From assembly GCA_919901555.1 (NCBI GenBank), contig CAKKPG010000120.1, positions 1-36,944 of the forward strand: DNA of 36,944 nt. The letters are read 5' to 3'. Shown piece by piece: positions 1,292 to 8,521 of the stretch. The notes under the pieces are model-generated. The model saw nothing but the letters and a program-made list of their open reading frames with translations, ran no database searches and was not told the DNA's origin. The position numbers and the translations under genes are program-made. Position 1 is the first letter of the stretch, and every line of letters starts with the position of its first letter. The stretch is from Nitrospiria bacterium (lineage in GTDB: Bacteria > Nitrospirota > UBA9217).

Positions 1292-1693
1292 GTGAACAAG
1301 CACTGCGTTGGATTTTTTGTTGTCGCCTTTGTGATGCTCTTTTTCTCGGTTGCAGTCGAAGCGGCCCAGAACAATCCTCCGATCCGGAAAGATGAATCCC
1401 TGAGAAGAGGTGAAACAAGGGAAACACTGGACCAGAATCTGTTCAGGGATGCGCGTGTGAAAAAGGCATACCAGGTTGCGAAGGATATCCCCTGGGTCCT
1501 GGACAGCATCTACTGTTACTGCCACTGTGATGTTTTTTCCAAGCACAAGAGCCTGCTGAGCTGCTATGTGGACGACCATGCGGCGATGTGAGAGATCTGT
1601 CTCGGGGAGGCCCTGCGGGCCTTCGAGCTGTATGAGAAGGGTTACCCGGCTAAGAAAATAAAGGAAACAGTCGAGCTGGAATATAAACGATAG
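1292..1693 (+). CDS. PCYCGC-type exported protein with in-frame TGA, likely selenocysteine
   Basis: The frame starts at GTG 1292 (AAGGAGG at 1274-1280) and meets TGA at 1589-1591. It then continues without a break to TAG 1691-1693, giving 133 residues if the TGA is read through. Residues 8-24 form a signal peptide core. The mature part has C75, C77 and C79 (CYCHC), then HKSLLSCY with C91, and DDHAAM-U100-EIC103. The PCYCGC family has the pattern CYC...HxS...C...DxH...CxxC. The TGA falls exactly on the first Cys of the CxxC, and the 33 residues after it continue the family pattern (LGEALRAFELYEKG). A hairpin follows at the right distance. GTG 1280 is an in-frame alternative start, but it touches the ribosome site. 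A nonsense mutation or sequencing error is the alternative. Confidence 0.8.
1601..1627 (+). promoter_or_regulatory. SECIS-like hairpin after the TGA of the PCYCGC-type gene
   Basis: Six perfect pairs (AGGCCC 1608-1613 with GGGCCT 1617-1622) close a TGC loop. Four more pairs (CTCG 1601-1604 with CGAG 1624-1627) lie below an internal loop. The apical loop begins 22 bases after the TGA, within the range known for bacterial SECIS elements, which lie inside the coding sequence just after the UGA. The loop is small and not a close match to the E. coli fdhF loop, so this is structural support only. Confidence 0.5.
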
Positions 1694-2606: not shown

Positions 2607-2684
2607 TAACATGTTGAATTTGTGCGATATTTTCAGATGTGTCTTCTGGTCTGCGGATTGCAATTACCCTTGCCGGAGGTTTGA

Positions 2685-3932
2685 ATGCGGAGAAAAATAA
2701 TTTTTTCTTTCGTTGTCTCTATCGCTCTTCCGATGGTTTCGCTGGCCGATGATGCATTGATTACCCTCAGGGACCTGGAACGGGAGATGCGTGCGAACAA
2801 CCCCGAAATCCTCATGGCGCGGAAAAAGGCCGAGGCGGCGCAGGAAAAGAAGGCCGTGGCTTCGGCCATGCCCGACCCCATGATCGGCTTCGAGGTGCAG
2901 AACGTGGGACGGCTGAGCAATCTTACCATCGGCGAGGAAGAGATGAGCATGCGGGGCGTTGTGGTCACGCAGGAGATACCCTTTCCTGGGAAGCTCTCCA
3001 CCATGGGAAAGGCGGCGGGAAAGCGGGCGGAGCAGGAGCAGGAAAATGAGCGCGGGACCGCGCTAAAAACCCTGAACAGCCTCAGGGCCTCCTACTACGA
3101 TTACTACCTTGCCTATAAATCCGCCGATATTCTGGCCCAGAATAAGGAGATCATGAAGAACTTCCAGCGCATCGCCGAGACGCGCTATGCCACGGGCCAA
3201 GGCATCCAGCAGGACGTGCTCCGGGCCCAGCTCGAAGTCTCCATGCTTCTCGAAAAGATCGCCCTCCAGGAACAGAAGAAAGAAGCACAGGCCGCCATGA
3301 TCAACAGCCTGCTCGGACGGGACCCGCGCCTGCCGCTGGGCAGACCCGGCGATGCCCTGAAGGCATCTTTTGGCGCGAACCTTGAAGATATTTCCAGCAA
3401 GGCCCTGGCCCGCTCTCCGGCGGTCCTGGGAAAGCAGCGGATGGTGGAGCAGAGCGAGTACGAACTGTCGTCCAGCAAAAAGGAGTTCCTGCCGGACATG
3501 GTCGTCTCGGCAGGGTGGTTCAACCGGGGCGACTTCACGGACGTCTGGCAGGCGAGCGTGATGTTCAAGGTCCCGCTCTATTTCTGGAACAAATCGGCGG
3601 GCGTGCGGGCCGCCTCCGCGGAGCTCGGGTCCGCGCGGTACGATTACGAATCGCAGAAGCTCATGGTCCTCTCGAAGGTCAAGGACCTCTACACCATGGC
3701 CAAAACCTCGGAGCGGCTCCTCAGCCTGTACGAGGCAGGGATCATCCCCCAGGCGCGGATGGCGCTCCAGTCCGCCGCGTCAAACTACCAGGTGGGGAAG
3801 ATCGACTTTTTGATGCTCCTCGACAGCCAGACGCTTTTGTTCAAATATCAGCTCGCGTATCAGGAAGAGCTGGTGAACTTGAACAAGACGATCGCGCAGA
3901 TCGAGGAAACAACCGGAGGCGCTGAAAATTGA
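2685..3932 (+). CDS. TolC-family outer-membrane efflux protein (CusC-like)
   Basis: This 415-residue protein has a signal peptide (residues 1-21, FSFVVSIALPMVSLA) and two outer-membrane efflux (OEP) repeats. They are rich in long alpha-helical stretches such as ARKKAEAAQEKKAVASAMPDP and the TRYATGQGIQQDVLRAQLEV hairpin region typical of TolC/CusC. It would form the outer-membrane channel of the tripartite metal pump encoded with the next two genes. GGAGG lies 5 bases before the ATG. Its TGA (3930-3932) overlaps the TTG start proposed for the adaptor gene. The length is within the family range. Confidence 0.92.
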   Translation: MRRKIIFSFVVSIALPMVSLADDALITLRDLEREMRANNPEILMARKKAEAAQEKKAVASAMPDPMIGFEVQNVGRLSNLTIGEEEMSMRGVVVTQEIPFPGKLSTMGKAAGKRAEQEQENERGTALKTLNSLRASYYDYYLAYKSADILAQNKEIMKNFQRIAETRYATGQGIQQDVLRAQLEVSMLLEKIALQEQKKEAQAAMINSLLGRDPRLPLGRPGDALKASFGANLEDISSKALARSPAVLGKQRMVEQSEYELSSSKKEFLPDMVVSAGWFNRGDFTDVWQASVMFKVPLYFWNKSAGVRAASAELGSARYDYESQKLMVLSKVKDLYTMAKTSERLLSLYEAGIIPQARMALQSAASNYQVGKIDFLMLLDSQTLLFKYQLAYQEELVNLNKTIAQIEETTGGAEN

Positions 3933-3958
3933 AGATTGAAAATTGGAAATTGAAAGAT
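3925..3958 (+). repeat. AT-rich intergenic-type repeat at the cusC/cusB junction
   Basis: This stretch is made of ATTGAA/ATTGGAAATTG units. The exact 11-mer ATTGGAAATTG (3942-3952) recurs at 30976-30986, and inverted at 31022-31032 between the two tRNA genes. Here it lies across the end of the TolC-family gene and the start of the adaptor gene, so it may be translated as the first residues of the adaptor. Confidence 0.55.
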
Positions 3959-5263
3959 GAAGCGAGAAAGGCCTCCGCAATTCCATGTTTTGCATTTTGC
4001 ACGGCGCATGTTGCTCTTGCAGCGATGCTGATCCTGATGTTCACCGGCAGTGTCGCCGCGGCGCAGGACCATTCAGGGCACACCGCGCCTCCGACCGCGG
4101 AAGGCCAGGCCGGACACGGCACACCCCAGCCCGCGGTGACGGAGCAACATCCGGCAGGACATGAGGCTGCGCCGGCGCCTACCCAGGAAGAAAAGAAGAG
4201 GGCGAAACAGCCGAAGGCGGAAAAAAAGAAGGTCGAGGAGCAACAGCCCGTGACAATCACTCTCCCGGAGGAGAAGCGCCAGCTCATCGGCGTGCGCACC
4301 GCCGTCGCGGCATACCGGTCCCTTGACCGGCAGATCCGCACGGTGGGCAAGGTGGATGTGGACGAGACGAGGCTCGCCTTCGTGAACACCAAGGTCGCCG
4401 GATGGGTGAAGAAATTGTACATCGATTACACCGGCCAGAAGGCCGTGAAAGGGCAGCCGCTGCTCTCGATCTACAGTCCGGACCTGGTCACGGCCCAGGA
4501 AGAGTACCTCCTTGCGCTCCGCTCCCAGAGCGCCGCTACGGCGCCCGGCGGGTTCAGCGAGGTTGCCGCATCGCAGCAGTCGCTCATTGATTCGGCCAAG
4601 CGGAGGCTCTTCCTCTGGGACATTACGGAAGAACAGATCGCGGAGCTTGAGAAGTCCGGAAAGCCGAAGACCGATATCACGCTGCAGGCGCCGCTGGACG
4701 GCATTGTGCTCGAGAAGATGGTGCTGGAGGGCGCCTACGTCATGCCGGGGATGAACCTGTACAAGATCGCCGACCTCTCGAACGTCTGGATCATCGCGGA
4801 CGTCTACGAGTATGAGGCGCCGCTGGTAACGGTGGGGCAGGAGGCGCGGGTGAGTCTGGCGTACGAGCCTGGCGAATCGTTTACTGCCGCGGTGATTTTC
4901 ATCTCTCCCGTTCTCGATCCGACCACCAGGACCATCAAGGTGAGGCTGGCCGCAAAAAATCCCCATCTCAAACTCAAGCCGGAGATGTTCGCAAATGTGG
5001 ATATTACGGCTTCCTCAGGCGCACGGCTCGCTATTCCGACTGAAGCAGTGCTCGATTCGGGCCTGCGCCAGATCGTGTATGTGGAAAAGAAGCCCGGCGT
5101 GTTCGAGATGCGCGAGGTGAAGCTCGGCGTGCGCGGCGAGACCTACGTCGAGGTGCTTTCCGGGATCAGAAAGGGCGAGCGCGTCGTGACGTCGGGAAAT
5201 TTTCTCATCGACTCCGAGAGCCAGCTCCGCGCAGGGCCGGGAGGCGGAGGACATCAGCATTGA
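3929..5263 (+). CDS. cusB: RND periplasmic adaptor (membrane fusion protein), CusB-like
   Basis: This 444-residue protein has a hydrophobic export segment (about 26-44), then a His-rich stretch (DHSGH, GQAGHG, EQHPAGHE at 47-79). A Lys/Glu-rich linker and a canonical adaptor core follow: VAGWVKKLYIDYTGQKAVKG (lipoyl/barrel-sandwich), a helical hairpin with EEYLLALRSQ, and beta-barrel elements (ADVYEYEAPLVTVGQEARVS). CusB homologues link the inner-membrane pump to the outer-membrane channel and deliver Cu(I)/Ag(I). The start is uncertain: TTG 3929 has GGAGG at 3914-3918 but begins inside a repeat. ATG 4025, closer to the signal segment, is possible but has no ribosome site. The His-rich extension is probably a metal-binding add-on. 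Confidence 0.9.
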   Translation: MKIENWKLKDEARKASAIPCFAFCTAHVALAAMLILMFTGSVAAAQDHSGHTAPPTAEGQAGHGTPQPAVTEQHPAGHEAAPAPTQEEKKRAKQPKAEKKKVEEQQPVTITLPEEKRQLIGVRTAVAAYRSLDRQIRTVGKVDVDETRLAFVNTKVAGWVKKLYIDYTGQKAVKGQPLLSIYSPDLVTAQEEYLLALRSQSAATAPGGFSEVAASQQSLIDSAKRRLFLWDITEEQIAELEKSGKPKTDITLQAPLDGIVLEKMVLEGAYVMPGMNLYKIADLSNVWIIADVYEYEAPLVTVGQEARVSLAYEPGESFTAAVIFISPVLDPTTRTIKVRLAAKNPHLKLKPEMFANVDITASSGARLAIPTEAVLDSGLRQIVYVEKKPGVFEMREVKLGVRGETYVEVLSGIRKGERVVTSGNFLIDSESQLRAGPGGGGHQH

Positions 5264-5335: not shown

Positions 5336-8300
5336 ATGTTAGCCAAGATCATCGAACTTTCGGCCAGAAATAAATTCCTCATCTTCCTCATGGTGACGTT
5401 CCTCGTCGTCTGGGGCGTCTGGGCGCTTTACCATACGCCCCTGGACGCCATCCCCGACCTCTCCGACGTCCAGGTGATCGTCTATACCGAGTGGACGGGC
5501 AGGAGCCCCGATCTCGTGGAGGACCAGATCACCTACCCCATCGTCTCCACCATGCTCTCAGCTCCCAAGGTGCGCGTGGTGCGCGGCAAGTCCTTTCTGG
5601 GGATCTCGTTCGTGTACGTGATCTTCGAGGACGGCACGGACATCTACTGGGCCCGGAGCCGCGTGCTTGAATACCTTCAGGGGGTGACCGGCAGGCTGCC
5701 TGCAGGGGTGACGCCGGTGCTCGGGCCGGACGCCACGGGCGTGGGCTGGGGGTTCCAGTACGCAGTGATCGATGAGACCGGAAATCACGACCTGGCCCAG
5801 CTCCGCTCGCTCCAGGACTGGACGCTCAAGTACGCCGTCGAATCCGTGCCGGGCGTCTCGCAGGTGGCGAGCGTGGGCGGGTTTGTGAAGCAGTACCAGA
5901 TCACGATCGACCCGAACCGGATGCACACCTACAACCTCTCCATTATGAAGATCATGGAGGCGGTCCGAAGGAGCAACAGGGACGTCGAAGGCCGCGTGAT
6001 CGAGTGGTCAGGAAGGGAGTACATGGTCCGCGGCCGGGGCTATATCAAGGACAAGAGGGACATCGAGAAGATCGCCGTGGGAACCGACGGCAAGGGCACG
6101 CCGATCATGCTCCGCGACGTGGCCGCAGTCCAGCTTGGGCCGGAGATTCGGCGCGGCATGGCCGACCTCGACGGCAAGGGGGAGGCCGTCGGCGGCATCG
6201 TCGTGGTTCGCTTCGGCGAGAACGTGCTCGCTGTCATCGAGCGCGTGAAGGAAAAGATCAAGGAAATTACGCCCTCTCTGCCCGAAGGGGTGAAGATCGT
6301 CACCGTTTATGACCGCTCCGAGCTCATCCACCGATCCGTCGAAACACTTCGTGATGAGATCATCAAACTCGGGCTTGCAGTAAGCGTGGTTTGCGTTGTT
6401 TTTCTCTTCCACCTCCCGAGCGCCCTCGTCGTGATCCTCACACTGCCCGTGGCGATCCTCATCTCCTTCATCTGCATGTACTACCTCCGCATCAGCTCGA
6501 ACATCATGAGCCTCTCCGGCATCGCCATAGCCATCGGCGCAATGGTGGACGCTTCGATCATCATGGTCGAGAATGCGCACAAAAAGCTGGAAGACTGGGA
6601 GAAGGCGGGAAAGCCCGGTTCGCGAATTGATGTGATCATCCACGCGGCCCAGGAGGTCGGTCCCTCGCTCTTCTTTTCGCTCCTTGTGATCACCGTGGGC
6701 TTTCTTCCGGTCTTTACCCTTGAAGAGCAGGCCGGCAGGCTGTTCAAGCCCCTTGCCTTTACCAAGACGTTCGCCATGCTCTTCGCGAGCTTCCTTGCCA
6801 TCACGTTCACGCCGGTGCTCATGACGCTCCTCATCAAGGGAAAGATCAGGCCCGAAGAGAAAAATCCGATCAATAACTTCCTGCTGAAGGTCTATCATCC
6901 CGTTGCGGAGTTTTCGCTCAAGTTTAGGAAATCCGTGATCAGCGCCGCAATTATTATTGTTCTTATTACATTCGCATTATTTATTTTGCCATTGTTCGGT
7001 CTTACGCTTATTGAAAGAGTGCAGCTCGGTTCCGAGTTCATGCCTCCTTTGTACGAAGGGACGCTGCTCTTCATGCCGTCGGCGCTCCCCGGCACCTCCA
7101 TCACGACGATGGCCCAGGTCCTCCAGGCCCAGGACAGGATCATGAAGCAGTTCCCGGAAGTGGAACAGGTCTTCGGCAAGGCCGGCCGGGCCGAGACGCC
7201 CACGGACCCGGCGCCGCTGGAGATGATCGAGACCGTCGTCAATCTGACGCCTCCGGACAAATGGCGTCCTCAATTTAGAAAGTGGGAAGATCTCAGAGAC
7301 GAAATGGATGACGCCCTTGCCATACCCGGTGTGGGCAATACGTGGACCATGCCGATCATCGGCAGGATCGACATGCTCTCAACGGGCATCAGAAGCCCTC
7401 TGGGCGTTAAAATCTTCGGCCCGCACCTCGACGAGATCGAGCGTATCGGTCTGGACGTGGAGAGAACCTTGCGGGAGATCCCCGGCACGAGGATGGCCTT
7501 ATCCGAGCGCGCGAATACCGGATACTTTCTCGATTTTACCATAAACCGCGACGAGATCGCCCGATACGGGCTCACCGTGGAAGACGTACAGGACGTGATC
7601 GAGACCTCCATCGGCGGGATGAACCTTACGACCACGGTAGAGGGACGGGAGCGCTATCCCGTCAACGTCCGGTACGGCAGGGAGCTGCGGAGCGACATCG
7701 ATAAGCTCAAGCGGGTGCTCGTCCCGATCATGGGCGGCGGGCACGTGCCCCTGGTCCAGCTCGCCGATATCCGGGTGACGAAGGGACCCGGCATGGTCCA
7801 GAGCGAGGACGGCAGACTTGTGGCGTATGTCACCCTGTACATCGAGGGGAGCGATCTCGGCGGGTATGTGAAAAAGGCGGCAAAAGCGCTTGCCGAAAAG
7901 GTAAAGCTCCCTCCCGGGTACCTCCTTAAATGGAGCGGTCAGTACGAGTACATGGAAAAGGTAAAGGCCAAGCTCTTCTATGTGATCCCCCTCACTTTGC
8001 TCATCATCATCGTGCTCATTTACCTGAATACCGGGTCATGGATCAAGACCGCCATCGTGCTGCTGGCCGTGCCCTTCTCCCTGGTCGGCACGGTCTGGCT
8101 GCTGTACCTCCTCGGCTATCACCTGAGCACGGCGGTCTGGGTGGGAGTGATCGCCCTCGCCGGGCTCGATGCCGAGACAGGCATTATCATGCTCCTCTAT
8201 CTCGACCTTGCGTATAACAAGTGGAAGGGCGACGGGAAAATTCATTCGCTGCGCGATATCGAGGACTCGGTCATGGAAGGCGCGGTCAAGCGCATCCGGC

Positions 8301-8521
8301 CGAAGATCATGACCGTGTCGGTGATCCTGGCGGGCCTCGTGCCGATCATGTTCTCGACCGGAACGGGCGCAGACGTGATGAAGCGCATCGCCGCGCCCAT
8401 GGTCGGCGGCGTGATCACCTCCACCATCCTGGAGCTTGTCATCTACCCGGCGATCTATGTGATCTGGAAGGAACGGGAGCTGAAGAAAGGCGTGAGGAAA
8501 AACAGCGGCTCCCCAGCATGA
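5336..8521 (+). CDS. cusA: CusA-type heavy-metal RND transporter (Cu+/Ag+ efflux)
   Basis: This 1061-residue protein is the usual length for heavy-metal RND pumps, with the first membrane helix at about 13-31. The central motif AIAIGAMVDASIIMVENAHKK is close to the CusA signature for monovalent ions and carries the Asp and Glu of the proton relay. The three periplasmic Met ligands of CusA are present: M580 in FMPSALPG, M630 in APLEMIET and M680 in RIDMLSTGI. Their spacing (50 and 50) is near that of M573/M623/M672 in E. coli. This supports Cu(I)/Ag(I) as substrate more directly than family membership. It is encoded 72 bases after cusB, with the two-hairpin module between them. The ribosome site before ATG 5336 is weak. 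Confidence 0.96.
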   Translation: MLAKIIELSARNKFLIFLMVTFLVVWGVWALYHTPLDAIPDLSDVQVIVYTEWTGRSPDLVEDQITYPIVSTMLSAPKVRVVRGKSFLGISFVYVIFEDGTDIYWARSRVLEYLQGVTGRLPAGVTPVLGPDATGVGWGFQYAVIDETGNHDLAQLRSLQDWTLKYAVESVPGVSQVASVGGFVKQYQITIDPNRMHTYNLSIMKIMEAVRRSNRDVEGRVIEWSGREYMVRGRGYIKDKRDIEKIAVGTDGKGTPIMLRDVAAVQLGPEIRRGMADLDGKGEAVGGIVVVRFGENVLAVIERVKEKIKEITPSLPEGVKIVTVYDRSELIHRSVETLRDEIIKLGLAVSVVCVVFLFHLPSALVVILTLPVAILISFICMYYLRISSNIMSLSGIAIAIGAMVDASIIMVENAHKKLEDWEKAGKPGSRIDVIIHAAQEVGPSLFFSLLVITVGFLPVFTLEEQAGRLFKPLAFTKTFAMLFASFLAITFTPVLMTLLIKGKIRPEEKNPINNFLLKVYHPVAEFSLKFRKSVISAAIIIVLITFALFILPLFGLTLIERVQLGSEFMPPLYEGTLLFMPSALPGTSITTMAQVLQAQDRIMKQFPEVEQVFGKAGRAETPTDPAPLEMIETVVNLTPPDKWRPQFRKWEDLRDEMDDALAIPGVGNTWTMPIIGRIDMLSTGIRSPLGVKIFGPHLDEIERIGLDVERTLREIPGTRMALSERANTGYFLDFTINRDEIARYGLTVEDVQDVIETSIGGMNLTTTVEGRERYPVNVRYGRELRSDIDKLKRVLVPIMGGGHVPLVQLADIRVTKGPGMVQSEDGRLVAYVTLYIEGSDLGGYVKKAAKALAEKVKLPPGYLLKWSGQYEYMEKVKAKLFYVIPLTLLIIIVLIYLNTGSWIKTAIVLLAVPFSLVGTVWLLYLLGYHLSTAVWVGVIALAGLDAETGIIMLLYLDLAYNKWKGDGKIHSLRDIEDSVMEGAVKRIRPKIMTVSVILAGLVPIMFSTGTGADVMKRIAAPMVGGVITSTILELVIYPAIYVIWKERELKKGVRKNSGSPA

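Follow-up and report, generated by a model that had tools for sequence, protein, structure and literature searches.

An OS_HP4/CYCXC family selenoprotein gene predicted beside a CusCBA-type pump in Nitrospirota

The window, i.e., the whole stretch of 36,944 nucleotides that was analysed, contains a plus-strand frame at 1292-1693 in which a GTG (1292), a TGA (1589-1591) and a TAG (1691-1693) share one reading frame. The question is whether this TGA ends the protein or is decoded as selenocysteine (Sec) and, if so, what a selenoprotein may do next to the genes of a metal pump.

The interrupted frame and its family

The TGA is the sole in-frame stop inside 1292-1693 and is followed by 33 sense codons up to the TAG; this frame check agrees with the sequence-only reading, which had described a frame broken by this codon alone. 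The features concerned are:

1292-1693, + strand: predicted OS_HP4 / CYCXC family selenoprotein gene, 133 residues, Sec at residue 100; matches to NF041379 and PF13798
1589-1591, + strand: in-frame TGA, predicted Sec, first residue of the C-terminal U-x-x-C; aligned TGA/Cys column
1606-1624, + strand: SECIS-like hairpin, 8 bp, loop UGC, loop 22 nt past the TGA

The read-through protein runs from a signal-like N-terminus (...AVEAA, judged by eye), according to which the product would be exported, through CYCHC...KHKSLLSC to DDHAAM-U-EIC. Thus, CYCHC is followed by one more Cys and by two His that are invariant, and the C-terminal part holds (Sec)-x-x-Cys. Compared with the NCBIfam model NF041379, "CYCXC family (seleno)protein", the 133 aa scored 120.4 bits (cut-off 90) and the match spans model positions 1-89; the score against the Pfam family PCYCGC (PF13798) was 41.2 bits (gathering cut-off 25). 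Chance is excluded as an explanation of the frame, since the read-through product matches a curated family over 89 of 90 positions. Other TGA-extended main frames in the window were inspected by eye and none resembled a second selenoprotein.

The family itself is known. Zhang and Gladyshev predicted OS_HP4 in 2007 from the Delta 1 symbiont of Olavius algarvensis, and it has been tabulated since then with one Sec in the motif UxxC, according to the available passages of two sources (PMC13188914, PMC9312934). The window protein, which exceeds the curated cut-off and has one Sec in UxxC, is therefore no discovery as a selenoprotein but another OS_HP4 member, with a host in Nitrospirota instead of the Olavius symbiont. 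The earlier belief that the family stands outside the selenoprotein lists has to be corrected: it has been listed since 2007 and is named (seleno)protein by NCBI, and the model NF041379 lets current pipelines find the gene. Regarding PCYCGC, for which the gathering score is exceeded, the passages available for a Firmicutes member describe a lipoprotein with conserved cysteines only beside an Fe3+-binding protein (PMC13068155), whereas the window protein is predicted to contain Sec and is encoded beside CusCBA-type genes.

What is added here are the operon contexts, a link to CcmH and a UxxU variant. In a limited literature search, which did not cover the 2007 paper, the passages searched did not state a linkage of OS_HP4 to CusCBA, TlpA or ResB-CcsA, and neither the CcmH link nor the UxxU variant was found in them. 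The variant is an OS_HP4 paralogue in genome G272 (L126, 3223-3714, + strand) with two in-frame TGA codons and U-x-x-U (RHAAAUNLUQDEA); the review table gives one Sec for OS_HP4.

To compare codons at residue 100, the window and relatives from its phylum were aligned (30 loci); the named relatives are Nitrospirota MAGs. This column is TGA in 14 loci, the window included, and TGC or TGT in the remaining 16. The earlier claim that the TGA occupies the position of a Cys in relatives is hence confirmed, homologues having either Cys or TGA there. Among 395 genomes of the phylum, an in-frame TGA was present at 65 of 89 family places according to our own tally from the list of these places; a stop other than TGA occurred only once in the 89, in a decayed copy. 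C75, C77, C79, H85, C91, H96, C/U100 and C103 are invariant in the alignment, and the 33 codons past the TGA are conserved among homologues. A UGA aligned with the Cys of homologues, with conserved sequence beyond it, is one mark of a bacterial selenoprotein, and both are found at 1292-1693.

The hairpin and the selenocysteine machinery

Downstream of the TGA, a hairpin is formed by a 5' arm at 1606-1613, the loop UGC at 1614-1616 and a 3' arm at 1617-1624. Its loop lies 22 nt past the TGA as previously described, but the stem starts after 14 nt and not after 10 nt. According to the available passages, the bSECIS rules ask for a loop of 3-9 nt, an upper stem of 4-16 bp and a G in the first two loop positions (PMC13188914); the hairpin found here has 8 bp and a 3-nt loop with G second, 22 nt from the UGA. 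Over an identical 39-nt stretch, the mean fold energy was -14.2 kcal/mol (sd 1.7) for 17 Sec forms versus -6.8 kcal/mol (sd 2.6) for 16 Cys forms; the hairpin is found in TGA forms and is weak in Cys forms. Folded alone, it is not unusual with respect to composition (z -0.69), which was counted against it. It does stand out from synonymous recodings, of which 42 in 2000 folded as well as the native sequence, and from the Cys homologues. In two pairs of the hairpin, both bases have changed, and pairing is kept in 96.7% of the cells; sliding the 3' arm destroys the conserved pairing, and the compensated-pair count was reached in 15 of 500 shuffles. This count and the single-sequence z-score are both modest, hence the energy contrast between Sec and Cys forms is the stronger argument.

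These results also bear on a sequencing or assembly error, in which a Cys codon TGC or TGT was read as TGA. The genome is a draft and a single base separates these codons, but TGA is present at the same codon in many independent genomes and the hairpin accompanies TGA, not Cys. An error is therefore hardly credible.

The machinery for Sec decoding, which the sequence-only reading had proposed to look for in the genome, was recovered in part. The tRNA-Sec gene selC (61.7 bits, above the cut-off, anticodon TCA) and selD (381.8 bits, above the cut-off) are present in the window's genome; SelD has its own TGA at the Sec/Cys position (SHGAG-U-ACK). The formate dehydrogenase alpha chain FdhA is full length with one TGA (1423 bits). 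As a side observation, another gene resembling formate dehydrogenase (G000:C111:12085-12816) also has a TGA in frame and is a further selenoprotein candidate of this genome.

In contrast to selC and selD, neither selA nor selB was recovered from the draft assembly of 220 contigs (completeness 96.5%), either by profile or with the proteins of a close relative. The SelA protein of the relative gave no match, fragments included, and its SelB protein matched only two genes, both EF-Tu-like, which were rejected. Absence of selB had been named beforehand as an observation speaking against a selenoprotein, and selB was not found in the window's draft genome; close relatives possess both genes. G001 and G004, the two nearest relatives carrying OS_HP4, have selA adjoining selB, and selB lies beside kefB and selC. 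In the window's genome, the order kefB-selC is retained, but the usual order selB-kefB-selC is broken, which was counted against the selenoprotein. A fragmented MFS transporter gene (L072, 4767-5515) is located by kefB/selC where relatives have selB. The TlpA flank of selA was also sought in this genome (G000) and did not locate a gap; each match was either a different TlpA-like gene or a fragment lying where a contig ends, and all were discarded. Across genomes, searches recovered selB from 15 of 16 that carry the TGA form versus 5 of 18 that carry a Cys form (Fisher p 1e-4), the single TGA-form genome without a selB found being that of the window. The exchange of Sec and Cys thus tracks both selB and the hairpin, and offers a clean natural comparison.

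The two missing genes could indicate that this lineage no longer decodes Sec and that the gene is a fossil, now ending at residue 99; the failed searches by profile and by protein and the broken order beside selC agree with this. On the other hand, tRNA-Sec, SelD(Sec), full-length FdhA(Sec) and the OS_HP4 gene, hairpin included, are all intact and the 33 codons past the TGA remain conserved. Furthermore, one gap would remove both selA and selB, because they are adjacent in relatives, and the assembly consists of 220 contigs at 96.5% completeness. Either the pair has moved and falls into an assembly gap, or it was lost recently; a gap is favoured, since three intact TGA genes and tRNA-Sec are present, and a fossil gene is considered improbable.

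The curated family match, the TGA/Cys column, the hairpin, tRNA-Sec and SelD together uphold the selenoprotein claim. Judging from sequence, the product of 1292-1693 is very probably a selenoprotein and belongs to the known family OS_HP4/CYCXC (probability approximately 0.93). Decoding of UGA 1589-1591 as Sec by the ribosome via tRNA-Sec, directed by the hairpin just downstream, is strongly supported as the predicted mechanism.

Gene neighbourhoods of OS_HP4

The genes following OS_HP4 in the window are:

1703-2104, + strand: exported Met/His-rich protein, probably copper-binding judging from its sequence
2107-2505, + strand: YtkA-like exported protein (PF13115, 69.8 bits)
2685-3932, + strand: TolC-type outer membrane efflux protein, CusC role (PF02321, 141 bits)
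3929-5263, + strand: CusB/CzcB-type periplasmic adaptor (PF16576, 270 bits; the CusB and CzcB models stay below their cut-offs)
5336-8521, + strand: CusA-type heavy-metal RND pump with the CusA Met triad (TIGR00914, 1109.9 bits, cut-off 701)

Neither Pfam nor NCBIfam has a family that matches the product of 1703-2104; a comparable Met-rich protein is encoded at another locus (L130) beside a frame which, by eye, has features of a heavy-metal P-type ATPase. The best PDB match of the pump is E. coli CusA, whose metal path contains the Met triad M573, M623 and M672; the window's pump keeps three Met, which align at chain positions 580, 630 and 679, a constant offset of 7 from this triad. The neighbourhood next to cusCBA, as proposed before, is thus real, and its order is conserved in relatives: OS_HP4-(YtkA)-TolC-CusB-CusA recurs with the Sec form at L062, L064, L065, L069, L078-L081, L138 and L165-L168, some of these loci being cut by contig ends. 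All 14 Sec forms of the cus type cluster together in the tree, with a support of 93/84, just below the strict mark.

Other members have different neighbours. OS_HP4 lies directly before a TlpA gene in four loci with TGA forms (L135, L137, L163, L170) and in two with Cys members (L067, L160). Four further Cys members (L066, L153, L154, L155) head a run of genes for TPR, thioredoxin-like, ResB and CcsA proteins, and TlpA is also within this run in three of these four.

At four loci, only the last ~41 codons of OS_HP4 are left, TGA included (L131, 2648-2770; L132, 2552-2656; L133, 2816-2938; L130, 3090-3212). These remnants look like decaying gene copies. At L131-L133, from three related genomes, YtkA-, TolC- and CusB-like frames follow the remnant; hence, the pump operon can persist without OS_HP4.

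Comparison with CcmH and possible roles

The AlphaFold model of the OS_HP4 protein is helical with a mean pLDDT of 84.5. According to this model, the product would form a small domain of helices in which CYCxC lies in a loop and U-x-x-C starts a C-terminal helical hairpin. Solved structures searched by sequence gave no match and Foldseek of the model against the PDB gave nothing credible. In a structural second look, the top row was the N-terminal domain of CcmH, whose fold has three helices and a CxxC (Z 4.8, rmsd 3.2, 67 residues), although Z values below 8 are common for helical models. When the family profile was compared with that of a small alignment of CcmH, both trimmed to the domain, the probability was 83.7% and the score 32.2, versus at most 23.1 in 150 column shuffles; untrimmed, the probability was only 16.5%. 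None of 26 members matched Pfam CcmH (PF03918) directly. In G272, a 219-aa frame (L128, about 2639-3300, - strand) combines a CcmH domain (39.1 bits) with a PCYCGC domain (35.7 bits), a natural fusion with each half above its cut-off. The structure and profile comparisons point weakly to CcmH, a cytochrome c maturation thiol oxidoreductase, which has comparable partners (TlpA; cytochrome c assembly genes). CcmH has a single LRCxxC, whereas OS_HP4 has CYCxC plus UxxC.

Based on the CcmH comparisons, the fusion in G272 and the partners TlpA and ResB-CcsA, the OS_HP4 product may be a CcmH-like extracytoplasmic thiol/selenol protein. That the window protein is such a CcmH-like periplasmic protein and is used in copper handling is a tentative proposal, to which we give somewhat less than even odds. 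In the window's branch, the selenol would serve YtkA and the CusCBA-type pump next to it in one of two ways, either by maintaining thiols that react with Cu(I)/Ag(I) in the reduced state or by binding Cu(I) and handing it on. In the remaining branches, the domain would work together with TlpA and proteins of cytochrome c maturation. More doubtful, though still possible, is the wider reading that CYCXC/PCYCGC proteins are divergent CcmH-like thiol oxidoreductases, of which one Nitrospirota Sec branch was recruited to CusCBA-type copper efflux and others kept a TlpA/System II role. If this is true, the handling of copper in the periplasm would include a step based on a selenol.

A serious rival, concerning the function only, is a purely metal-binding selenoprotein, i.e., a copper chaperone or store in which the Cys, Sec and His form a metal site instead of acting in redox chemistry. 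It is taken seriously because the eight Cys/Sec/His positions listed above are invariant, and a copper-type pump and the Met/His-rich protein adjoin the gene. However, other branches are tied to TlpA, ResB and CcsA, not to metal efflux, and Sec usually serves catalysis; we regard a plain metal-binding role as possible, with odds against it. CusF, which serves CusCBA as a Cu(I)/Ag(I) chaperone in the periplasm, is likewise a small exported protein encoded with such a pump; OS_HP4 differs in having a helical model with Cys/Sec/His residues.

The family has been labelled a hypothetical selenoprotein since 2007 and is a protein of unknown function in Pfam. Its neighbourhoods offer jobs that can be tested: together with CusCBA the handling of Cu(I)/Ag(I), and together with TlpA and ResB-CcsA a role in thiol chemistry. 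In genome G139, an in-frame TGA would give a TlpA-like protein the motif WTTW-U-PWC; its gene (L071, 6532-7161, - strand) is convergent with a Sec-type OS_HP4 gene, so that two selenoprotein genes would be neighbours there.
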